Below, piece by piece: positions 22,867-35,820 of a stretch of 36,767 nt of DNA. The translations under genes and the position numbers were made by a program. Below the pieces are notes generated by a model that was given only the letters and a program-made list of their open reading frames with translations, did not search any database and had not been told where the DNA came from. This stretch comes from a bacterium (lineage in GTDB: Bacteria > Myxococcota_A > UBA9160 > SZUA-336), in the NCBI GenBank assembly GCA_024226335.1, contig JAAELY010000277.1, positions 1-36,767 on the forward strand, given 5' to 3'. How positions within the stretch are numbered: the stretch's first letter is position 1; each line of letters begins with the position of its first letter.

Positions 22867-23934
22867 GTGGAAGAACCAGTTCGCTACGGTGTGATCGGGA
22901 CGGGACTGATGGGCACGGAGCACCTGCGCAACCTCGCGCTCGTGCCAGGCGCCAAGGTCAACGCTTTTGCGGACCCCAATGCGGAGAGCCGACGCTGGGC
23001 CAGGCTGGTCGCGCCACCGGAAGCGCAGGCCTACGAGGACTACAGAGACCTGCTTGCGAACGCCGAAGTCGACGCCGTGATCATCGCAAGTCCGAACTTC
23101 ACGCACGCAGAAATCCTGAGCGAAGTCTTCAAGACGCACAAGCACGTGCTGATCGAAAAGCCGCTATGCACGAAAATCGACGACTGCATGCGCGTCGTAG
23201 AAGCGGCCGCTTCACATCGCGGGATCGTGTGGGTGGGTATGGAGTACCGCTTCATGCGTCCCGTGGAACGCCTGGTCCACGAAGTAGGCGCCGGCAGTAT
23301 TGGCCAGTTGAAAATGCTCGCAATCCGCGAGCATCGCTATCCCTTCCTGCCCAAGGTCGATGACTGGAACCGCTTCGCCGAGAACACTGGCGGCACTCTG
23401 GTGGAAAAGTGCTGTCACTTCTTCGACTTGATGAACCTGATCACCGAGCAGCGCCCGATCCGCGTCTACGCCTCAGGCGGTCACGACGTAAACCACCTGG
23501 ACGAGCGCTACGGCGGTCGGCAGCCCGACATCCTCGACAACGCTTTTGCGATCGTCGATTTCGACGGCGGTGCGCGCGCCCTACTGGACCTCTGCATGTT
23601 CGCCGAGAACTCGAAGAACGAAATGGAGATCGCGGCAACGGGCAGCGAAGGAAAGATCGAAGCCTTCATCCCCGCCCACGAATTGATTCTAACGCGGCGC
23701 GACTCGCGCGATCAAACGAATATCGAGCTGAGCGTCGATCGCGAGGTTCGCCATGCGGGCGCGCACCACGGCTCGACGTTCTTCGAACACATGGCCTTCC
23801 TGGAGGCAATCAGGAAGGACGGCAAGCCGATCGTCAGCGTTGAGGACGGCGCACTAGCCGTCGCCGTCGGGGTAGCTGCAGAGCGTTCCGTGCGCGAAGG
23901 CCGCCCGGTCCAACTGAGCGAACTGGGATTCTGA
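22867..23934 (+). CDS. Gfo/Idh/MocA-family NAD(P)-dependent oxidoreductase
   Basis: 355 aa from a GTG at 22867 with AGGAGA about 5 bases upstream. An N-terminal Rossmann fold opens with YGVIGTGLMGTEHLRNL and has the family motif IEKPLCT. The C-terminal domain contains GGTLVEKCCHFFDL, the catalytic region that normally carries the His of 'HxxD' (H-F-F-D here is present). Members oxidise or reduce sugars, inositols and related polyols. Substrate and partners are not indicated by the neighbours; the gene stands alone between the PilZ protein and a miniature transposable element 58 bp downstream. It is cytosolic. Confidence 0.88.
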   Translation: MEEPVRYGVIGTGLMGTEHLRNLALVPGAKVNAFADPNAESRRWARLVAPPEAQAYEDYRDLLANAEVDAVIIASPNFTHAEILSEVFKTHKHVLIEKPLCTKIDDCMRVVEAAASHRGIVWVGMEYRFMRPVERLVHEVGAGSIGQLKMLAIREHRYPFLPKVDDWNRFAENTGGTLVEKCCHFFDLMNLITEQRPIRVYASGGHDVNHLDERYGGRQPDILDNAFAIVDFDGGARALLDLCMFAENSKNEMEIAATGSEGKIEAFIPAHELILTRRDSRDQTNIELSVDREVRHAGAHHGSTFFEHMAFLEAIRKDGKPIVSVEDGALAVAVGVAAERSVREGRPVQLSELGF

Positions 23935-23992
23935 CCGGACCGCCGCCCCGAAAGACGCCGCGCATCCCGGCCCGGTGAGCTTCCACAACCTG

Positions 23993-24161
23993 CTAGGGAA
24001 CCTCTGCACAGGGAGGCTGCGGCTGCGAAGCGCGATGCATCCGCCTGCGCTGCATCGCGCAACCCTCTGCAGATCTACGGATCTGCGATCGGATCACGCT
24101 TCTTGCTCAGGCGGCGACTCCCGCTTCTCGCTCGAATCCTCCCTGTGCAAAGATTCCCTAG
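23993..24161 (+). mobile_element. 169-bp miniature inverted-repeat element, copy 1
   Basis: A 169-bp unit begins CTAGGGAACCTCTGCACA and ends with the inverse, TGTGCAAAGATTCCCTAG, giving terminal inverted repeats of about 24 bp. It matches 34891-35059 on the opposite strand at 165 of 169 positions. It encodes no protein. CTAG at both ends fits a TA duplication at a CTAG target, as made by IS630/Tc1-mariner-type transposases. Internal perfect stems occur at 24030-24039 with 24051-24060 (10 bp) and 24069-24075 with 24080-24086 (7 bp, TACG loop). The terminal CTAG (24158-24161) contains the stop codon of the secreted metallophosphatase gene on the minus strand. Confidence 0.9.
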
Positions 24162-27100
24162 GGGAACACTGGAATCGAAGGCGGGATATCGGTTTCGTCG
24201 TCGTCTACAAGATTGGAACAACCAGCGTCCTGCGCGTAGTCGATCAGCAGATCGGCATCGTTGTCGCTGCCATCGTCGCAAGCGGGTCCGTTGGGGTCGA
24301 ATTCGCTCAGATCGGTCGGCCCGCTGCAGCCCGGATCATTCGGGTAGTCGGAAGAGAAGTCGCTGTCGTTATCCACCGCATCGTCACAGGCCGGCCCGCC
24401 CAGTTCGCGTTCGCTGGTATCGGAGGGCCCGGTACACCCGAGATCGCCCGGGAAATCCGGCGTACCGTCGAGGTCGTTGTCCAGCGCATCGTCGCAGGGC
24501 AGACCAGGCCCGCGTTCATCGCCATCACTCGCGCTGGAGCAACCGGGATCCGCCGGGAAATCGGCGATCAGGTCCAGGTCGTTGTCCAATCCGTCATCGC
24601 ACGCAATACCACCCAGTTCCCGTTCATCGGTGTCCGTCGGCCCGGTACAGCCGGTGTCATCCGGATAGTCGAAAAGACCGTCGCCGTCATTGTCGCTGCC
24701 GTCATCGCATGCGGCACCGAGCGGATCGCGCTCGTCGGGGTCATTTGGATCGCTGCAACCCGGATCATTCGCATCGACCAGCACATCAAAGTCGTTGTCG
24801 AAACCGTCGCTACACGCAGGGCCTGGAACGTTGCAAGTGCAATCGGGCAGGCACAGGCCTGGACAGGCCGAATCATTGCTGCCGTCGCAGTGTTCGGGCG
24901 CATCGATGATCAGGTCGCCACACACGGCCGGACACAGACAGTCTCCGGGCAAGATGCACTTGTTCAGAGTTACCGTGTCTAGAACGGTGCCGTTCTTGTT
25001 GACCATAGTGGCCGTCAACTGATTTCCATTCACGTCGAACACACCGATACCGATTTCCGAGACGTAGAACTCGACGGGAGGGGGAAACGGTGAAGGCACG
25101 TTCGGGTCCGGAGCTCGGGTCCAGGCACCCGTTCCTGGATGGATCACCGTCGTCCCGGCCCCGTCTTCACAAGAGGCATACGCGATGTTCGGGTCACCGG
25201 GAACCACGTCCGTAATCGGGCGGTAGCGCTGATAGGAATGAACGGCGCCACCGAGGAACAGATCAGCCCCCTCGTCGACGGCGACTTTCAGGATGTTGTC
25301 CCGCAACTGGTCGTGTTCTTCGCGTTCGCCGGACCAGGTGACCTTCATGACGGCCGGCTCATGCGACACGACCACCTTCCACGTCTTCGACGAAGCCTGC
25401 AGGTCTGCTGTGAGCCACGGCGCGACATCGGTCGGGAGCGTCCCGAAATCGCGGGCAGAGTTGATGACGGCGAAGTGCACGCTGCCGTAATCGAAGGAAT
25501 AGTTGTACTCGTCGGTCAGGGTCGCCGGACCATTCAACGGCGAGAAAGCGTGATCCAGAGTGCTCTGGCCTTCGTCGATTCCAACCCCGTGATTGCCGAT
25601 CACGAATGCGAACGGTCGATCGACGATCGTATCCTCGTAGACATCGAAGACTCGGGACTGGAAGTGTTCGTACTCTCCCAGATAATAGACGTAGTCACCG
25701 AGCAGGAAGTGCAGGTCGGGATCCTGAACTGCAAGCTGGGCGGCTATCTTCTTGGCTCCCTGCGTACCCTGGCCGCTATTACCGAAGGCCGTAAAACGAA
25801 ACGCGCCCGTCTTCTGGGTTCCGACCGTATTCTGCCAGGTCTGGATCGGTACCTCGTTGCGCAGATGCCTCAGTCGGTACTCGTACTCCGAGTCGAAATT
25901 CAAGCCGCTGATCGTTGCGTTCTGGTTCAATCGAGAAACCGAGTTGACGGAAACTGGAGTTCCGGTCGAGACGGCAATCCAGTTGGGATCCCCGAGTTCC
26001 CGATACTCGATTTCGAAGCGGTCCGCGTTCGGGCCGCCTTCGCGGGTCGTGACTGTCTGCCAGGCCACCAGGAACTGATCCGTTAGCGGATTCAGAGGTG
26101 CATCCCCGAGCTGGAGGTAAGGTGGACCGTTGACGTGGTACTCGACGGGCGCTTCGACCGAGACGACCACGGGCGCGACGCCGCTGGTCAGAACCACCGC
26201 GTCATCGCTAGCAGTAAAACTGGCACTGCCGGGGGTCGCGCCGAAGATCACGCTCGCTGATTGCAGATTCGACCCACCTGCGGCAAACGTGAGAGCGAGC
26301 GAACCCGCCGTCGATCCGACGAAGTCCGCAACCGCAGGGTCCGAGGTCGTGAGGGTCACATTGACCGGGCCGAGAGCATTGCTTCCAAGTGGAATCTGCA
26401 CTTCGATCGACGAATTCGGCGCGCCCGCCGCATCGTAGACCGCTGCGGGATCGAGTTCGATCGGAGTACTCGCAACGTTTACGGGCAGCGCAGCGTCGCC
26501 GACCGCCGCATCGTTTGTCGTGGTGAGAAGAGCCGTACCGGCGGAACCGATGGTCAGCGCGACGGGCATGCTCGTCGCGCCTGCTTGCGCGAACACGATC
26601 GGTCCCGGGCCGGCCGTTACACCGGGTGCATCACTGGCGATGGTCACCGTCACGGCCTGTGCCGAATTCGATCCATCGGGAATCCGCAATACGACATTCT
26701 GCGAACCGGCACCGGGATAGGCATCGAGTTCGATCGGCGCAAAGACGATAGTTGGGGCGAAATCAACCTCGAGACGCGGGCGCGCAAAGCTATTCGAGTC
26801 TTCGCTACTGCGAATCGTGGTCGCGTCCAGACCGTGGTGATCCTTCGGAATCGGGACACCCGGCGACGAGAGATAGGTCTCATCGGGATTCACACCATCG
26901 CTCAGCGTGATCGACCACGAGTTGAGCACGGACTCACTATTGAAAGAACTCCACTCATCGGTCACGGTCAAGATCCAGTCGCCGTCCGCGAGCTGACCGC
27001 ACAAACCTGCCGTTCCTCCGCCCGTACACAGAGGCAGCGAAAGGCAGGAGCCATCGGGTCGATAGGTACCCAGCAAGGGGGAGCTATTTCCCGAGTCGTG

Positions 27101-28042
27101 CACGTCGGTGGCCGCGTCATCGTCGAGCGTAATCACCAGGTCATCGGCCCCGTTGATGTTGGCGAAAAAACACCCCGAGCGGCCGAGTTGATCGAGCAGC
27201 AGGGCAGTGTAATTGCCATGTCGCAGTGTCACGATCAGTTCGCCGCGCTGGGGCGTCGTGATGTCGAGGTCGACGGTCACCTTCGTCAGGGACCCCAGCG
27301 ATGAGCTCGCGACCGGGATCGTTTCCTGAAGTCCAACCGGCATGAACAACCAGCCCAGGTTCGCATCAGGATCAGCCGACCAGGCCGAAAGCGAGTCTGC
27401 TACATCGATTGCAAGCACCTGCCCATCGACCACTTCGCCGGTATGGGCCTCGATCGCGCTGGAGAAATCCGACCCGAAATCCGGACCGGGCGACGCGCCC
27501 AGTGAATCCCAACGCAGCGATTCGTCCCAGTCGACCAGCATCCGGTGCAGATTCGCTGCATCCCCGTTGCTCGGATAGCCGTTGTCGACCTCGATGTAGA
27601 GCGTCGCGGAGTTGATCTGCGCTCCCGGAGGAATCTGATCCGCGTCGGATCCGAACAGATCCCGAAAACGCAAGAGTCCGATGTTGTCGCCCCAGCTCTT
27701 TTTGTTGGCCCCGGAACTCAGCAAGACAGAAGCGGCTCCCCAGGTGTCCTCGAGATCCCACTCCCAGCGCTCGTTCTGGGGGTCGGTCGGAAACTCGCTC
27801 TCATCGTGACCCGACCCGGTGAAATCCGGCGGGATCGAGATGTGCAGGTCCTCGGTACCCGCGTACCCGTTCTGACCTTCCTGAAAGGAGCGGACCTCCT
27901 GGCCATACGCGGGCGATCGGAGCCCCAGAGCCGCGAAGGCAACCATCAGGACGAGGCACAACCGCAGCGCGCGCGAATGGTGCGCGAGCTTTCGCCTTTC
28001 GCCTGGAATGGCGCTCCTCTTCCCTAGACGCGACATGACCAT
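24158..28042 (-). CDS. Giant secreted metallophosphatase-like protein with nested P domain and Cys/Asp repeats
   Basis: 1294 aa from an ATG at 28042 (another at 28036); a frame extending to 28243 adds non-signal residues. A signal peptide ends near residue 47 (SPAYG). Next, a DNRLRE-like beta domain (nt about 27730-27320 and again 26890-26750) is interrupted by a proprotein-convertase P-like domain (27300-26905, VTVDLDITTPQRGELIVTL ... NSWSITLSD). Two beta-sandwich modules and a fibronectin/purple-acid-phosphatase N-terminal module follow, then a calcineurin-like phosphoesterase domain (about 25800-25150). Its motifs read FGNSG, LLGDYVYY, GNHG, VVSHEP and GGAVHSYQR: motif I Asp is Asn and motif V first His is Ala. 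The C-terminus has a CxxxC-rich CGDLIIDAPEHCDG segment and six Cys/Asp repeats. The stop TAG lies in a mobile-element end. It is probably a surface or extracellular protein; catalytic activity is doubtful. Confidence 0.82.
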   Translation of the reverse strand: MVMSRLGKRSAIPGERRKLAHHSRALRLCLVLMVAFAALGLRSPAYGQEVRSFQEGQNGYAGTEDLHISIPPDFTGSGHDESEFPTDPQNERWEWDLEDTWGAASVLLSSGANKKSWGDNIGLLRFRDLFGSDADQIPPGAQINSATLYIEVDNGYPSNGDAANLHRMLVDWDESLRWDSLGASPGPDFGSDFSSAIEAHTGEVVDGQVLAIDVADSLSAWSADPDANLGWLFMPVGLQETIPVASSSLGSLTKVTVDLDITTPQRGELIVTLRHGNYTALLLDQLGRSGCFFANINGADDLVITLDDDAATDVHDSGNSSPLLGTYRPDGSCLSLPLCTGGGTAGLCGQLADGDWILTVTDEWSSFNSESVLNSWSITLSDGVNPDETYLSSPGVPIPKDHHGLDATTIRSSEDSNSFARPRLEVDFAPTIVFAPIELDAYPGAGSQNVVLRIPDGSNSAQAVTVTIASDAPGVTAGPGPIVFAQAGATSMPVALTIGSAGTALLTTTNDAAVGDAALPVNVASTPIELDPAAVYDAAGAPNSSIEVQIPLGSNALGPVNVTLTTSDPAVADFVGSTAGSLALTFAAGGSNLQSASVIFGATPGSASFTASDDAVVLTSGVAPVVVSVEAPVEYHVNGPPYLQLGDAPLNPLTDQFLVAWQTVTTREGGPNADRFEIEYRELGDPNWIAVSTGTPVSVNSVSRLNQNATISGLNFDSEYEYRLRHLRNEVPIQTWQNTVGTQKTGAFRFTAFGNSGQGTQGAKKIAAQLAVQDPDLHFLLGDYVYYLGEYEHFQSRVFDVYEDTIVDRPFAFVIGNHGVGIDEGQSTLDHAFSPLNGPATLTDEYNYSFDYGSVHFAVINSARDFGTLPTDVAPWLTADLQASSKTWKVVVSHEPAVMKVTWSGEREEHDQLRDNILKVAVDEGADLFLGGAVHSYQRYRPITDVVPGDPNIAYASCEDGAGTTVIHPGTGAWTRAPDPNVPSPFPPPVEFYVSEIGIGVFDVNGNQLTATMVNKNGTVLDTVTLNKCILPGDCLCPAVCGDLIIDAPEHCDGSNDSACPGLCLPDCTCNVPGPACSDGFDNDFDVLVDANDPGCSDPNDPDERDPLGAACDDGSDNDGDGLFDYPDDTGCTGPTDTDERELGGIACDDGLDNDLDLIADFPADPGCSSASDGDERGPGLPCDDALDNDLDGTPDFPGDLGCTGPSDTSERELGGPACDDAVDNDSDFSSDYPNDPGCSGPTDLSEFDPNGPACDDGSDNDADLLIDYAQDAGCSNLVDDDETDIPPSIPVFP
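24188..24815 (-). repeat. Six tandem 34-36 residue Cys/Asp repeats
   Basis: Within the C-terminus of the secreted metallophosphatase-like protein, a unit of the form C-D-D-G-x-D-N-D-x-D-x5-D-(Y/F)-P-x-D-x-G-C-(S/T)-x4-D-x2-E recurs six times (about 105 bp each). Each unit has two Cys, likely disulphide-bonded, and dense Asp/Asn with the spacing of calcium-binding loops. Related repeats are common in secreted delta-proteobacterial proteins. Confidence 0.85.
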
Positions 28043-28442
28043 CCCCAATTGTAACCGGCGAGATCCGCTCTGAGTGAGTTTTTGCGACCCCAATTCGCCA
28101 CCGGTCGTCCGGGTGCGATCACACCGTACGGAGGAAAACCGCAGCGAACCGGGCGAACTGGTGTGGGCCTGATCGGCCCAGAAAGCGTTGGCTATGGAAA
28201 CTCGGAGCGATTCGGAATTCCCCAACAATGCGGCAATACACATATATAACGGAATTTGCCTGTGCCGGTTGACTTGAGAGAAGCACTGAATCGGCAGACG
28301 AACTCAATCGGGCTCCTTCCGGACACGGAAATTTCGCGAAAACCCGTGGTGTAGGGCTGGCAACCCGGCTCTACACCCCCCATCATTGGCCCACCGACAA
28401 GATTCCTAACGATCCGTCTCACCTTCCCGGAGGCCTGGTCGC
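28043..28442. promoter_or_regulatory. Divergent promoter region of the two giant secreted-protein genes
   Basis: 400 bp with no gene. It separates the divergent starts at 28042 (minus) and 28443 (plus). It is notably AT-richer around 28230-28260 (ATATATAACGG) than its surroundings, a plausible place for a minus-strand -10 region, though no matching -35 was found. A 10-bp stem-loop (28348-28357 with 28368-28377, one G-U pair) lies about 65 bp before the plus-strand start and may form in its leader. Confidence 0.4.
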
Positions 28443-31400
28443 TTGAAACAACACGAACCGGTCGCCATTCCGCGTGGCGTCCTGTTCGGCAATGCTGCGC
28501 TGAAGACTTCAGCAGCATTCGCCATCCAACTCTGCCTTTGTGTCTGTCTCGCCGTTGCGCTGCTACCCGGCAAGCTGCAGGCGGACTCCTACGCGTCGCA
28601 ACGTCTGGTTGGCGGTGACGCTCACCAACACGCGAGTTCGGCGAGCAATTTGTCCTCCTGGCTCAACGAGGCTTGCGCGCCGCATCAGTTCGGCAGACCG
28701 ACATCGGTCTACGACGCCATGCGCGCCGGTGGCTACGACTGGGGGAACCTGTCGCATCACTCTCACATGATTTCCCGTTTGCCACAGGAACAGGCGTACA
28801 AGCTCTGGATCGACCCGAACACGATTCCGATCCCCGATACGAAATTTGGCGGCTTTTTCGATCTGGACCCGGGCGGCTTCCCCGATTTTTCCACCGGTCT
28901 TCCGCTGGCTGCGCCGTTCGACCCCTGGAACGAAGCCCAGTCGTTCTCGACCGCGGCCAGCACGCGAAATCAGCCGGGTGCATTCATCGCGTTCAGCGGG
29001 CGCGAGTACACGACAAGACACGACAACAGCGGACTGGCGAATACCGGCGGCCACAAGATCCTGATTCTTCCCGTAGACACTGACGTGACTTGCGGCGAAG
29101 GCGTCGTGAAGGACGGATTGTGTACGAGTGAGTGGGAGATGTATCTGTGGGTCGCGCAACTCGGCGGTGCGGTCATCCAGGCTCATCCCGCCGAACTGGC
29201 CGATCCGCACCTGGATCCCGCCACAAACCCCGGCGGCTTCAGCGATGCACTAATCTTCGGGATGGAACTCGGCACCACGCGCGTGCGCTGGGAAGGCAGT
29301 TACCAGCAAGCGCTTTCTCGCGGTTTCCGGACCTTTCCCGCGATGGGCAGCGATAACCACAACCGGCCCGAAGGTTGCTTGCCCACAGCGTTTCCCAGCA
29401 CGTCGCGCGGCACCACGCTGTGTTGGGCGGATGCCCTTACGCGCACTAGCGTAATCGATGCCATGCGCGATCGGCGCTGCTACTACGGACGCGCCCGCAA
29501 ACCCGAACTCCGGGTGGAAGCCTGTGCCCAATGGGATATCCCGAGTGCATCCTGCGCCGTCGCCGTCACCCAGATGGGCGACCTGCTCTCCGCTCCGGGC
29601 GGAGCCTTCCATCTGAGCGTCGAGGTCGTGAACGATCCCGACAATGCAGACCTCGGCGACCCGAATGCTGGAATGCGCTTCGACACCCTCGAAGTGGTCG
29701 ACCAGACAGGAACCGTCCTGCGTTCCTGCCCGATCGGTGGTTCGACCAGCTGTAACTGCACACGCGATGATGCGGGCGGATTGGACCGATGCACCTTCGA
29801 TGGCCTGATCGCAGTGGCGTCGGGTGCGATCTATCCGCGCGTCAGCTGCTCGGGAAAGAACTGCCAACAGACTTGCGAGGACGGACTCCCAGGGGATTGC
29901 CGCTGGCTGGTCACGGGCGCCCCGATCTATGTGAACTGGAACACGTACAAGACGCGGATCGGCTTCACCGGCGCGGACGATTGCGACTTCGATGCCGACG
30001 GAATCGCCTGCTACGAGGACAACTGTCCTACGGACTACAACCCGGACCAGGCAGACCCCGACGGCGATGACGTGCCCAGCGCCTGCCTCGACAACTGCCC
30101 ATACCTGGCCAACGCAGACCAGAGCGACGTCAACGGCGACGGCGAAGGCGACGCGTGTGATCCAGAAGCGGATGATGATGGCCAGCCCAACGCCGCGGAC
30201 AACTGCCCGATCTTTCCGAATCCCGATCAGAACGACGGCGACAGCGACGGCGTGGGCGATCTCTGCGACAACTGCCCGGGAATTCCCAACGCAGACCAGG
30301 CCGATGACGACAGCGACGGTGTGGGCCAGATCTGCGACAACTGCACGACGATCGCCAATTCTCTGTTCGACCCGAACACCAGTGGCTACCTCGCATACGA
30401 CTTCGAGGGGGAGCCGTTCCGCACCACGACGGGCGGCCAACTCGACGACGACGCGGATGGCTACGGCAACGCCTGCGACGGAAAGTTCACGGCCGGTGAT
30501 GGCAACGTCGACGCTTCGGACCAGGCGGAGTTCGCCGCATCCCTTTTCGGTCTCGTCATGCAACGAACCTGCGGAACGAGTGGCGGAGAGCCCTGCGACA
30601 AGTTCGACATGGAAGAAGCCAGTGCCCTCGGCCTGGCTGTCGACACCTCGGACGAGGCGGCTTTCCAGGCGCGGAACGGGCTGCCGCCGGGACCGCGCTG
30701 CGCGCTGTGCCCGCTGGAATGCGCGGGCGATGCCTGCGACGACGATGGCGACGGATTGAGCGACACCTATGAGACGAGCATCGGAACCGACCCGGGATCC
30801 GAGGACAGCGATGGCGACGGTGATCTGGACCTCACGGAACTGATCGCGGGAAGCAATCCACTCGATGCCGACAGCGACCTTTCGCCCGCACTCCGCGAAC
30901 TGGCCGGGGGACGGGTAGAACTGAGCTGGTCGTCCTCACCAGGAATCAGCTACGAGGTGCTTTTCGGCGCTGGCATCGCACAGGCAGATAGCAACGGATC
31001 GGGTGCCTCGTTGCCCAGCCTCGAGAGCTTCGCAACGATGGTGGGAACTGGAGCCTCGCTGCAGCAGATTGACGACGGCAGCACCACGAGCGGATCGCCC
31101 AGCGATGTCGATACCCGGATCTACGCGCTGCAGATCACCGGCTCCCATCCGGAAACCGGCAGCCAGATGACCGTGACCGGCAACCCGGTCGGTTTCGTGC
31201 GAATCAAACTTCCGGCCGGCGGCTTCGAGATCATCGGCATGCCGTTTTTTGCCGACGATGATTCGATCCACGTCATCCTGGGACAGCAACTCGACGGCGC
31301 CTCGCAAGAAGCCGAAGCCGATCGCGTACTCGCGTTCGACGCACTTTCACAGGTGTACACCAGCGCGTTCGTATTCGATTCAGGCGGGACCGCTCCCGGA

Positions 31401-31874
31401 TTTGATCATCGACTCTTCGAAATCGGCGGCGAATCGACGCTGCGCCTGGGCTGTGGTGACGCGGTCTTTGTTCACAACCGCGGGCCGGCCCAGAACCTTT
31501 TTCTCGCTGGACGTCTGGCCCGCGAGCCGCATTCGCACAATCTCCTGGCAGGCATGAATCTGTTCGCGCCCTGCCATGCCGTCTCTGGGCGCCCGCTCGA
31601 CGCGACTTCACTGGCATTGGCCGGCGCCACTGGCGGCACCGATCCCATCGCGTCCGATCGCGTGTTGCGCTTCGTTCCCGAGACCCAAGCCTTCGCGGGC
31701 CAGTACTTCTTCGATTCGGGCAGCGACCCGAGCTTCGATCGACGCTGGTTCCCCGAGACCGGGGGGAGCGATGAGAGTTTCGATCTGGAGGCGGGTCAGG
31801 GCTACGTGTACATGAACCGGGGCGGCCCCCCCGATCTCGTCTGGCTGGAGAACGTGCCCTACACGCTGCCCTGA
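28443..31874 (+). CDS. Giant secreted PHP-like metallohydrolase with thrombospondin type-3 repeats
   Basis: 1143 aa from a TTG at 28443 with GGAGG nine bases upstream. A hydrophobic signal segment (about 24-48) precedes a PHP/DUF3604-like metal-hydrolase domain (about 50-340): GDAHQH (58-63), NLSHHSHM, SGREYT, GGHKILILP, VIQAHPAE and AMGSDNHNRP supply His/Asp clusters placed as in PHP-fold enzymes. A beta domain with several Cys pairs follows, then calcium-binding-type thrombospondin type-3 repeats (about 511-640), a dockerin-like AGDGNVDASDQAEF segment (about 684), a second Asp-rich stretch (about 763-812), and a C-terminal beta-rich half with paired 'DRVLxF...YxxxFxFDSG' modules. It probably acts outside the cell on phosphoesters or similar, with calcium stabilising the stalk. 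It is divergent from the metallophosphatase-like giant. Its last 16 bp overlap the small gene on the other strand. Confidence 0.82.
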   Translation: MKQHEPVAIPRGVLFGNAALKTSAAFAIQLCLCVCLAVALLPGKLQADSYASQRLVGGDAHQHASSASNLSSWLNEACAPHQFGRPTSVYDAMRAGGYDWGNLSHHSHMISRLPQEQAYKLWIDPNTIPIPDTKFGGFFDLDPGGFPDFSTGLPLAAPFDPWNEAQSFSTAASTRNQPGAFIAFSGREYTTRHDNSGLANTGGHKILILPVDTDVTCGEGVVKDGLCTSEWEMYLWVAQLGGAVIQAHPAELADPHLDPATNPGGFSDALIFGMELGTTRVRWEGSYQQALSRGFRTFPAMGSDNHNRPEGCLPTAFPSTSRGTTLCWADALTRTSVIDAMRDRRCYYGRARKPELRVEACAQWDIPSASCAVAVTQMGDLLSAPGGAFHLSVEVVNDPDNADLGDPNAGMRFDTLEVVDQTGTVLRSCPIGGSTSCNCTRDDAGGLDRCTFDGLIAVASGAIYPRVSCSGKNCQQTCEDGLPGDCRWLVTGAPIYVNWNTYKTRIGFTGADDCDFDADGIACYEDNCPTDYNPDQADPDGDDVPSACLDNCPYLANADQSDVNGDGEGDACDPEADDDGQPNAADNCPIFPNPDQNDGDSDGVGDLCDNCPGIPNADQADDDSDGVGQICDNCTTIANSLFDPNTSGYLAYDFEGEPFRTTTGGQLDDDADGYGNACDGKFTAGDGNVDASDQAEFAASLFGLVMQRTCGTSGGEPCDKFDMEEASALGLAVDTSDEAAFQARNGLPPGPRCALCPLECAGDACDDDGDGLSDTYETSIGTDPGSEDSDGDGDLDLTELIAGSNPLDADSDLSPALRELAGGRVELSWSSSPGISYEVLFGAGIAQADSNGSGASLPSLESFATMVGTGASLQQIDDGSTTSGSPSDVDTRIYALQITGSHPETGSQMTVTGNPVGFVRIKLPAGGFEIIGMPFFADDDSIHVILGQQLDGASQEAEADRVLAFDALSQVYTSAFVFDSGGTAPGFDHRLFEIGGESTLRLGCGDAVFVHNRGPAQNLFLAGRLAREPHSHNLLAGMNLFAPCHAVSGRPLDATSLALAGATGGTDPIASDRVLRFVPETQAFAGQYFFDSGSDPSFDRRWFPETGGSDESFDLEAGQGYVYMNRGGPPDLVWLENVPYTLP
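29975..30370 (+). repeat. Thrombospondin type-3-like calcium-binding repeats
   Basis: Repeated units of the form D-N-C-P-x4-N-x-D-Q-x-D-x-D-x-D-x-x-G-D-x-C-D recur about four to five times inside the PHP-like giant protein (for example DNCPYLANADQ, DNCPIFPNPDQ and DNCPGIPNADQ). By family knowledge these bind calcium and form a stiff extracellular stalk. Confidence 0.88.
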
Positions 31875-32283: not shown

Positions 32284-32329
32284 AAAATGAAAGGCCCCGA
32301 TCCCTTGCGGGACCGGGGCCTTTCATTTT
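32284..32329. terminator. Strong bidirectional terminator
   Basis: A 21-bp stem (32284-32304 with 32309-32329, one mismatched pair) with a 4-nt loop has A-rich and T-rich outer ends on both strands (AAAATGAAAGG / CCTTTCATTTT). It ends 12 bp before the stop of the minus-strand PEP-CTERM gene and is its natural terminator. Confidence 0.92.
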
Positions 32330-33808: not shown

Positions 33809-34000
33809 ATGGCCCGGAAGAGCAAGATGTCGATCCTCAAGCGTCAGCGAGAGGTCAAAAAGGCCGAGAAAGCCGCGTTGAAGCGCGAAAAGCGGATGGA
33901 CCGACCCGACGGTGGCGGTTCCGGTACAGATGTGGCCACCAAGGAAGACCTGGCCGGGTACGGCTTTCCCGAGGACGAGGAAGACGCGAGCAACGGCTGA
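33809..34000 (+). CDS. Small basic/acidic protein of 63 aa
   Basis: The ATG at 33809 has AGGAG 6 bases upstream; the open frame extends further upstream but only without a ribosome site. The N-terminal half is a Lys/Arg-rich helix (MARKSKMSILKRQREVKKAE), reminiscent of nucleic-acid-binding or ribosome-associated tails. The C-terminal half is acidic with a 'TKEDLAGYGF' segment and ends EDEEDASNG. Small proteins of this shape recur in delta-proteobacterial genomes but I know no function. Its end overlaps the start region of the EamA transporter gene, so the two may be co-transcribed. Confidence 0.65.
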   Translation: MARKSKMSILKRQREVKKAEKAALKREKRMDRPDGGGSGTDVATKEDLAGYGFPEDEEDASNG

Positions 34001-34958
34001 ATCCCACCCGGAAGCAGGTCGGTCTCTGCACTATCTTCTAGTGGTCGGCGGCGCTCTGGGGATCTCCACGGCGCCGATCCTGGTCGCTCTCTCACAGGCG
34101 GCCCCGACTCAGGCGGCTTTCTGGCGTTTTGCCTACGCGTTGCCGGTGCTTCTCGCACTCTGCCTGGTGCGGCCTGCGGGTCGGCGTTCGTTCTCCCGGC
34201 GGGGCTGGATCGCGGCGGCGGCGCTATCCGGACTGTTCTTCGCTGCGGACATGGATCTCTGGCACCACTCGATCGGCTTGATCGGTGCCGGTCCCTCGAC
34301 CCTCCTGGCCAATACGCAGATCGTCTGGCTGGCCCTGTTCGGCCTCTTGTTCCTCGGCGAGCGCCCCTCACGCCTTTTTTGGCTCACCCTGCCTGTGATC
34401 GCTCTCGGCCTGCTCCTGCTCACGGGCGAAGACTCCGCAGACCTGCGCTTCCCGGAACAGCGCGCGGGATTGCTGTTCGGGCTGGCTGCGGGGTTTTGTT
34501 ATGCGGGAGCACTCATCTGCCTGCGACGCTCGCAACGGGCTGCACCTGTGCTGCCTGAAGCGACACTCGTGATGCAACTCAGCGTCGGAGTGGTCGCACT
34601 GGCCCTGGTCGGCGCAGTCGACGGTTCACTTCCCGCGACGCTGTCGGCCCAGCAGCACGGCTGGCTGTTGCTTCTGGGCCTGGTCGCGCAGGTCGCTTCG
34701 TGGATGGCGATCACAACCGGTATCAAGCACCTGCCCGGGCACCACGGCGGGCTCCTGCTCTTGTCGCAACCCGTGAGCAGTCTGTGCCTGGGCTGGTGGA
34801 TTCTCGACCAATCGCTCGCCGCGTCGCGCATCGCCGGTGCGGGGCTGATCCTGTGCGGCGTGGCTGCCGCGTTGTTCGCAGAAAGCAGAGCTAGGGAATC
34901 TCTGCACAGGGAGGATTCGAGCGAGAAGCGGGAGTCGCCGCCTGAGCAAGAAGCGTGA
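33930..34958 (+). CDS. EamA/DMT-family transporter with a mobile-element-derived tail
   Basis: 342 aa if started at the ATG 33930; GTGs at 33912 and 34041 are alternatives, and none has a good ribosome site, so coupling to the overlapping upstream gene is likely. About ten membrane segments in two EamA halves are visible (LLVVGGALGISTAPILVALS to LPVIALGLLLL, then LLFGLAAGFCYAGALICL to AGAGLILCGVAAALF). Family members move metabolites such as amino acids across the inner membrane. The last 22 residues (A-R-E-S-L-H ... E-Q-E-A) are encoded by the inserted miniature element. Without the insertion, joining the flanks, the frame would continue 12 codons after AESRA (SGRPPRTKDSRR) and stop. Confidence 0.85.
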   Translation: MWPPRKTWPGTAFPRTRKTRATAESHPEAGRSLHYLLVVGGALGISTAPILVALSQAAPTQAAFWRFAYALPVLLALCLVRPAGRRSFSRRGWIAAAALSGLFFAADMDLWHHSIGLIGAGPSTLLANTQIVWLALFGLLFLGERPSRLFWLTLPVIALGLLLLTGEDSADLRFPEQRAGLLFGLAAGFCYAGALICLRRSQRAAPVLPEATLVMQLSVGVVALALVGAVDGSLPATLSAQQHGWLLLLGLVAQVASWMAITTGIKHLPGHHGGLLLLSQPVSSLCLGWWILDQSLAASRIAGAGLILCGVAAALFAESRARESLHREDSSEKRESPPEQEA

Positions 34959-35059
34959 TCCGATCGCAGATCCGTAGATCTGCAGAGGGTCGCGCGACGC
35001 AGCGCAGGCGGATGCATCGCGCTTCGTAGCCGCAGCCTCCCTGTGCAGAGGTTCCCTAG
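34891..35059 (-). mobile_element. 169-bp miniature inverted-repeat element, copy 2
   Basis: Same element as 23993-24161, inverted; four single-base differences. It is flanked by CTAG at both ends. One end (35056-35059) holds the TAG stop of the minus-strand methyltransferase; the body provides the C-terminal codons and stop of the plus-strand EamA gene. No third copy was noticed in the window. Confidence 0.9.
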
Positions 35060-35820
35060 CGGGCGACCACCACGAACGAAGGACTCTCGACGCTAATGGG
35101 GCTGCGATCGAAATCGCCATAGATCATCACGTCCTCGAAACCCGCCCGCGCCAGCAGGTGTTCGAGTTCGTAGCGGTAGAACCAGCGCATATCGAAATCG
35201 CTGAACTCATTTGCAACGACTTCCCCGGCGCGGTGCACCTCGTAGCGCATGCGCACGTGCAGGGACTGACGCGCACGGTCGCGCTCGACAGTCTCGTAGC
35301 GAACGACCTGATCGCCCTCCAGTTCGAAGCGAAGCTGCTCGCGCTCGGGAATCGAGTCCGGCCCCTGCATTCGAGGCCGAAAGACGTCGAAGGCGAAGAT
35401 CCCTCCAGGGGTCAGATAGCGACGGACCCGTTCGAGGCAGGCCAGCTGGTCCGCAATCGAATCCAGGTGCTGAAACACTCGAAAACCGGAGAAGATCAAG
35501 GCGAAGCGTTCGTCTTCCCCTTCGAACTCGAAGGCCTGCATCGGCGCACACACCAGGTGCAGAGTGGGAGGAGGTCGCTTGTCGCGCAGCACGTTCAACA
35601 TCGCCTGCGAGGCATCCACTCCCGTGCAGGGATATCCCTGGGCTGCGATCTCCAGCAACACGCGACCCGTACCGCAACCGAGTTCGAGAACGGGACCACC
35701 GGCTTCACGGGCCAGCGACGCGTAGAATTCCCCATCCCGGCGTTGCTCGGAAATGGCCTCATAAGCCGCGTCGTAAAACCGCGCGGTCACAGAGCCGTAG
35801 GATCGATCGAGTTCGTTCAC
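35056..35820 (-). CDS. Class I SAM-dependent methyltransferase
   Basis: 254 aa from a GTG at 35820 with GGAGGG about 5 bases upstream. It is a Rossmann-like methyltransferase: motif I VLELGCGTGRVLLEIA (about 44-59), the acidic residue of motif II in CTGVDASQAML, motif III region PMQAFEF..FALIFSGFRVFQHL, and the later YLTPGGIFAFDVF strand. The N-terminal YGSVTARFYDAAYEAI is typical of the UbiE/Methyltransf_25-like group. The substrate is not identifiable. Its stop codon is part of a mobile-element end, leaving the C-terminus FVVVAR apparently natural. Confidence 0.88.
   Translation of the reverse strand: MNELDRSYGSVTARFYDAAYEAISEQRRDGEFYASLAREAGGPVLELGCGTGRVLLEIAAQGYPCTGVDASQAMLNVLRDKRPPPTLHLVCAPMQAFEFEGEDERFALIFSGFRVFQHLDSIADQLACLERVRRYLTPGGIFAFDVFRPRMQGPDSIPEREQLRFELEGDQVVRYETVERDRARQSLHVRMRYEVHRAGEVVANEFSDFDMRWFYRYELEHLLARAGFEDVMIYGDFDRSPISVESPSFVVVAR

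Follow-up and report, generated by a model that had tools for sequence, protein, structure and literature searches.

The window, i.e. the whole stretch of 36,767 nucleotides that was analysed (contig JAAELY010000277.1), belongs to a genome (G000) of 5.75 Mb that is distributed over 556 contigs and is 97% complete. Two copies of a short palindromic element, referred to below as a MITE, are located in this window, each enclosed by CTAG. The features around the first copy, with the strand given where it applies, are:

22867..23934, plus strand: convergent GFO/IDH/MocA oxidoreductase gene, ending 58 bp short of the element
23993..23996: left target duplication CTAG of copy 1, read in the sequence
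23997..24157: MITE copy 1, 161 bp, palindromic, without an ORF of its own, with three differences from the family consensus
23997..24016, plus strand: terminal inverted repeat, C-end, GGAACCTCTGCACAGGGAGG, identical in its first 14 bases to the right end of the IS5-type element of this genome
24138..24157, minus strand: terminal inverted repeat, T-end, GGAATCTTTGCACAGGGAGG in copy 1, consensus GGAATCTCTGCACAGGGAGG
24158..24161: right target duplication CTAG, whose TAG on the minus strand (24160-24158) terminates the metallophosphatase-like gene
24158..27946, minus strand: gene with the insertion at its stop codon, with weak Metallophos and P_proprotein matches and an alternative ATG start at 28243

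The initial annotation had described copy 1 as a miniature element of 169 bp with CTAG ends and terminal inverted repeats of about 24 bp. The span (23993-24161) is correct, but it includes both target duplications, and the repeat proper measures 161 bp. Its terminal repeats are imperfect, with a match at 18 of the first 20 bases (GGAACCTCTGCACAGGGAGG and GGAATCTTTGCACAGGGAGG), and reach approximately 24 bp when CTAG is counted. On the minus strand the right CTAG indeed supplies the TAG that follows the codons for V-F-P, at the end of the ORF 24158..28243. The length of 1294 aa proposed for this gene is less certain: the ORF ends at the CTAG as described, but depending on the start it comprises 1361 aa (first ATG) or 1262 aa (codon usage). 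An empty site of copy 1 was sought in relatives, where homologues align poorly over the C-terminus of the metallophosphatase-like protein.

Two further repeats were observed elsewhere in the window. A 21-bp inverted repeat (32284-32329; 95% perfect, four-base loop, AAAA/TTTT ends) is located downstream of the gene at 28443-31874 and looks like an ordinary bidirectional terminator. Within the ORF of that gene, a 69-base unit (DNCPxxxNxDQxDxDxDGxGDxC) is present three times (30090-30335), and these units resemble thrombospondin type 3-like calcium-binding repeats. An Rfam search of the window returned one tRNA and nothing else.

The second copy is located between a methyltransferase gene and a transporter ORF:

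33912..34958, plus strand: EamA-type transporter ORF, which reads into copy 2 and takes its stop codon from inside the element
34891..34894: left CTAG of copy 2
34895..35055: MITE copy 2, inverted relative to copy 1 and 97% identical to it
35056..35059: right CTAG of copy 2, providing the stop codon of the minus-strand methyltransferase gene
35056..35820, minus strand: complete methyltransferase gene, to which relatives align up to residue 254

For this copy a counterpart without insertion was found. The methyltransferase orthologue of a relative in the same family (G007; 64% identical) has the same final residues, FVVVAR, followed by a TAG within a single CTAG, and carries no insert; it thus represents an empty allele at the orthologous stop codon. 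For another host gene ended by a MITE copy (L130), the orthologues are of about equal length but have a TGA stop, which demonstrates an intact protein and not an empty CTAG. Full-length orthologues were not found for a third host gene searched for an empty site, and a paralogue of one coding-region target lacks both the insert and CTAG. Where it could be checked, the comparison with orthologues shows that the stop codon predates the insertion and that the protein was not truncated. The earlier proposal that such insertions leave proteins undamaged holds to this extent, as orthologues end at the same residue where checked, but it is not general. Without copy 2 the frame of the EamA-type ORF would continue to a TAA about 40 bp past the CTAG, so that the insertion is predicted to have altered the C-terminal tail of this convergent ORF; since the ORF now stops inside copy 2, not every insertion is harmless, and two of 30 assembled copies are located in predicted genes.

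A first search of the genome yielded 40 scored copies and a pattern search 173 ends; the stretches around all sites were then taken and reduced to 151 distinct ends. Because of these numbers, the 97% identical second copy and the folding of copy 1 compared to shuffled sequence (RNA fold z = -7.8 and -10.9 on the two strands), copy 1 cannot be attributed to chance. The inventory comprises about 28 full-length assembled copies, about 77 contig-end halves and a few deletion forms (77, 83, 96 and 147 bp), leading to an estimate of about 70 copies in the genome, each zero to four bases off consensus. Among the 161-bp copies that were assembled completely, one to four bases deviate from the consensus, and in contig-end copies mostly zero to three over about 135 bases. 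Contig breaks inside the MITE are common, as expected for young repeats. The 169-bp unit as such was not found in the other 59 genomes searched, except for one 41-bp stretch in G044, and the MITE sequences were not found in named genomes, viral contigs or plasmids. G044 also contains a distinct element of 77 bp that shares the end motif and has CTAG-type flanks (L185:1961-2045, L191:2692-2776), apparently an independent miniature family.

The origin of the element was traced through its ends. The motif CTAG+GGAANCTCTGCACA was searched in 90 other genomes of the class and was present in 15 of them. In three of these (G063, G028 and G078) two GGAANCTCTGCACA ends enclose an element of 1140-1144 bp with a complete transposase of 323-326 aa, which matches NCBIfam NF033581 (IS5_4; E-values down to 3e-99) and comprises DUF772 and DDE_Tnp_1 domains. 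These autonomous elements of 1.14 kb thus combine the ends of the MITE with CTAG duplications. In the genome of the window, three contigs (C406, C387 and C543) terminate with the left end of such an IS and its first codons (CTAG|GGAATCTCTGCAGAACCCC...), and one (C452) opens with the final codons and the right end (CTAG|GGAACCTCTGCACATGCGGG in the inward direction). The MITE ends (GGAATCTCTGCACA.. and GGAACCTCTGCACA..) match these IS ends over 12 and 14 bases, and no recognisable IS sequence was found in the MITE core. A complete IS was not assembled in this genome, where its ends are found at contig breaks only, together with one decayed fragment on C289, and the multicopy interior is absent from the assembly. 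Among annotated plasmid proteins, the best relatives of the transposase encoded by the IS with MITE ends share about 52% identity with it. Its named relatives are found in Deltaproteobacteria/Myxococcota and other environmental genomes, and the window is very likely from the same group.

Other remnants and families were encountered during this search. The fragment on C289 (L032:1455-1940) is an internally deleted IS5-type relic (CTAGGGAATTTCCGCAGAACC.. with transposase fragments) that carries a MITE copy at its remaining end. A second, different DDE_Tnp_1 transposase (C542:1734-2270, L031) is apparently decayed and has no MITE end motif nearby. A further family was identified in G043 (L180, L219-L231, L256-L260), with ends CTAG+GGAAGGTCTGCACAGGGTGCAGACC and a hairpin within the end itself; 14 of its 20 ends are located at stop codons, and an IS5_4 transposase was not found in G043.

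With regard to the target, exactly CTAG precedes 136 of the 151 distinct ends, which supports the proposal that the element targets this word. On the other hand, the idea that insertion regenerates TA has to be replaced. One copy in the window's genome (C523, L111) has CTAA on both sides, and among 54 IS relatives with delimited ends the flanks were CTAG/CTAG in 23, TTAG/TTAG in 10, CTAA/CTAA in eight, TTAA/TTAA in two and ATTA/ATTA in one. The 4-bp flank pairs were matched in 44 of the 54 and one base apart in the rest, although the delimitation gave a bonus to matching flanks, so that the exact pair counts lean to matches. The duplicated target is therefore 4 bp, YTAR, mostly CTAG. Variant flanks in the window's genome (sites in L037, L044, L063, L087, L111, L124 and L131) mostly affect the first and last base of the duplication (TTAG five times, CCAG three times, CGAG, CAAG and ATAG, with only one inner change); the single non-matching flank bases of a few copies may be later mutations. 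Outside CTAG, C is in addition weakly preferred at -3 and G at -1. For E. coli IS5, a 4-bp YTAR duplication with CTAG as the commonest target has been reported (PMC5493358).

To relate the insertions to gene ends, genes were called by a custom codon-usage model trained on 1.15 Mb of fetched DNA of the same genome (87% coding), and the assembled elements were removed in silico, after which the empty sites were classified. Twenty-five of the 30 assembled copies were located exactly on a stop codon, three were intergenic and two were in predicted genes, compared to 112 stop, 162 intergenic and 279 coding positions for the 553 empty CTAGs in the same DNA. This corresponds to an odds ratio of 12 for stop versus intergenic positions (p=9e-7) and to an approximately 14-fold depletion in odds of insertions in coding compared to non-coding DNA (p=7e-7). 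The stop odds ratio remained between 6 and 12 when the gene-call threshold was varied, the CTAG background was similar in an insertion-free stretch of 118 kb, and a Mantel-Haenszel analysis by orientation of the neighbouring genes gave an odds ratio of 20 (p=3e-4). When all ends were counted, including those of contig-end copies, 50 of 148 were at stops, compared to 119 of 544 half-sites in non-coding DNA (p=0.0036). As stop positions are less frequent among contig-end copies (23 of 77 copy ends, versus 22 of 56 ends of assembled 161-bp copies), 83% at stops is probably an upper figure, and about two thirds is the safer one. That the assembled copies are older, and hence more strongly filtered to stops, was considered but is not claimed: their divergence (1.2%, against 0.7% for contig-end copies) is suggestive, yet the two groups do not differ significantly in their stop fraction. 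A comparable excess was observed in other genomes of the class, where 46 of 91 ends (IS copies, short elements and undetermined contig-end copies, all with the end sequence of the MITE) were at stops against 31 of 118 other CTAG half-sites (p=5e-4); among the three complete IS copies initially detected in relatives, two were at stop codons. A literature search, from whose reach most subscription papers were excluded, returned no report of stop-codon targeting by CTAG-specific IS5 elements.

Neither outcome that the initial annotation had named as refuting, a spread of copies irrespective of CTAG and stops or a lack of empty-site alleles in relatives, was observed. The stop codon was thus rightly proposed as a niche, but it need not itself be what is sought. 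Expressed per empty CTAG half-site, insertions amount to 0.42 at stops, 0.50 at 0-20 bp downstream (where some half-sites form the far side of a stop of the opposite gene), 0.35 at 21-100 bp and 0.17 further away, while upstream sides have 0.10-0.17 and gene interiors 0.016. The 3' surroundings of genes in general are favoured, and stops are where many CTAGs are. The high density downstream, the lower one upstream and the near absence within genes lead to the conclusion that CTAG targeting combined with the loss of harmful insertions explains most of the pattern.

Taken together, the element is short, lacks a transposase gene and has terminal inverted repeats (161 bp, imperfect 20-bp ends), its near-identical copies (about 70) are dispersed, and the empty orthologous site in G007 points to movement. 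We consider it very probable that it is a non-autonomous MITE of an IS5-family insertion sequence, the surviving copies of which are found at stop codons by CTAG targeting and selection. It represents a new family, though of a kind already known, and its stop-codon niche is unusually clear. Judging from the common ends, the MITE would be moved in trans by the IS transposase: the enzyme of the full-length IS would recognise the GGAANCTCTGCACA ends and make a cut staggered by 4 bp at a YTAR target, which is almost always CTAG, and insertion of the 161-bp palindrome would then duplicate CTAG on both sides. CTAG is rare in this genome, with approximately half of its occurrences outside coding interiors and about 20% being NNC-TAG stop codons. 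An insertion at a stop CTAG keeps stop codon and protein intact, because each flank retains its own CTAG. Selection would remove copies that landed in coding DNA, as well as many that landed upstream of genes. Surviving copies would then accumulate at stops and just downstream, mainly between convergent genes, and most would sit on stop codons because CTAG mostly survives outside genes and at gene ends. We infer that selection is also the cause of the excess over other non-coding CTAGs, although simple removal of promoter insertions does not account for the stop preference within convergent pairs, where the ratio of stop to non-stop CTAGs was 16:0 for insertions and 44:16 for empty sites.

This last observation bears on the proposal that the niche is chosen rather than left behind by selection, with a transposition machinery that, in addition to CTAG, is actively drawn to stop codons or the 3′ ends of genes, for example by DNA structure, termination or a longer target motif. 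Among sites of equal gene orientation, stop CTAGs are preferred over non-stop ones; all copies are of very recent origin, so that selection has had little time to act; and a weak extra preference is seen at -3 and -1. We nevertheless regard active preference as unlikely, as CTAGs 0-20 bp downstream are as densely occupied as stops, no strong extended motif was seen, insertions in coding DNA exist but are rare, which is the pattern that selection would leave, and the non-stop convergent sample is small (16 empty sites). In its more specific form, with an IS5-type machinery that senses stops or the transcription-termination region besides CTAG and acts as a safe-harbour inserter with built-in selectivity, it is likewise unlikely.

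Copies might also be kept for a function, the hairpin after the stop codon acting as bidirectional terminator, mRNA 3′ stabiliser or RNase III site. Such a role, suggested by the very stable fold on both strands and by the position of 16 of the 25 stop copies between convergent genes, seems very unlikely: no terminator-like site was found at 23900-24250 and no T run after the MITE stem, the copies are recent and near identical with no long-term conservation seen, and protein-coding IS copies, which need no hairpin, reach the same position. An IS630/Tc1-mariner MITE duplicating TA within CTAG, a preference known for IS630, can be dismissed almost entirely, since elements with the same ends encode IS5-family and not IS630 transposases and matched 4-bp duplications (TTAG/TTAG, CTAA/CTAA and TTAA/TTAA) occur, even though most flanks on their own fit a TA or a CTAG duplication equally well and the variant flank bases are mostly at outer positions.

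The preferred reading, a MITE directed to CTAG and filtered by selection, provides a clear case in which a rare four-base target word that doubles as stop-codon context gives a transposon a nearly harmless home, and it links target choice, genome-wide CTAG avoidance and copy-number success. It also makes a testable prediction for IS5-family elements of other GC-rich bacteria. For annotation, it should be taken into account that such MITEs rewrite the sequence downstream of many genes as well as the tails of convergent ORFs, and for assembly that they break contigs.

Among known systems, MITEPsy1/ISPsy2 of Pseudomonas syringae (IS5 family; 4-nt duplication of CTAG or YTAA) is similar in being short, non-coding and associated with a 4-nt duplication and an IS5-family transposase, and its ends start GGAA..TCTG (PMC3189936). 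In the accessible part of that report, MITEPsy1 measures 100 bp and has few copies, two of six inside genes, unlike the approximately 70 copies found here mostly at stops; no stop-codon bias is mentioned there and no sequence relation to the present MITE is apparent beyond the ends (PMC3189936). E. coli IS5 and transpos_IS5_4 (NF033581) share the transposase family, a size of about 1.15-1.2 kb, ends that start with GG and YTAR targets with CTAG as the commonest one, whereas the MITE is a 161-bp non-coding derivative. Many copies, a palindromic structure, positions near genes and the potential to form hairpins when transcribed are also features of RUP, NEMIS/Correia and Nezha MITEs. For RUP and Correia-type elements, however, the association is with transposases of the IS630 type and a duplication of TA, while the present element is of IS5 type and uses CTAG. 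REP/BIME sequences are also small palindromes outside genes, often after stop codons, but an identity as REP or REPIN was rejected: unlike REP/BIME-RAYT systems, the element has no GTAG tag, and it has true terminal repeats, a target duplication and ends that belong to IS5 elements with a DDE-type transposase.
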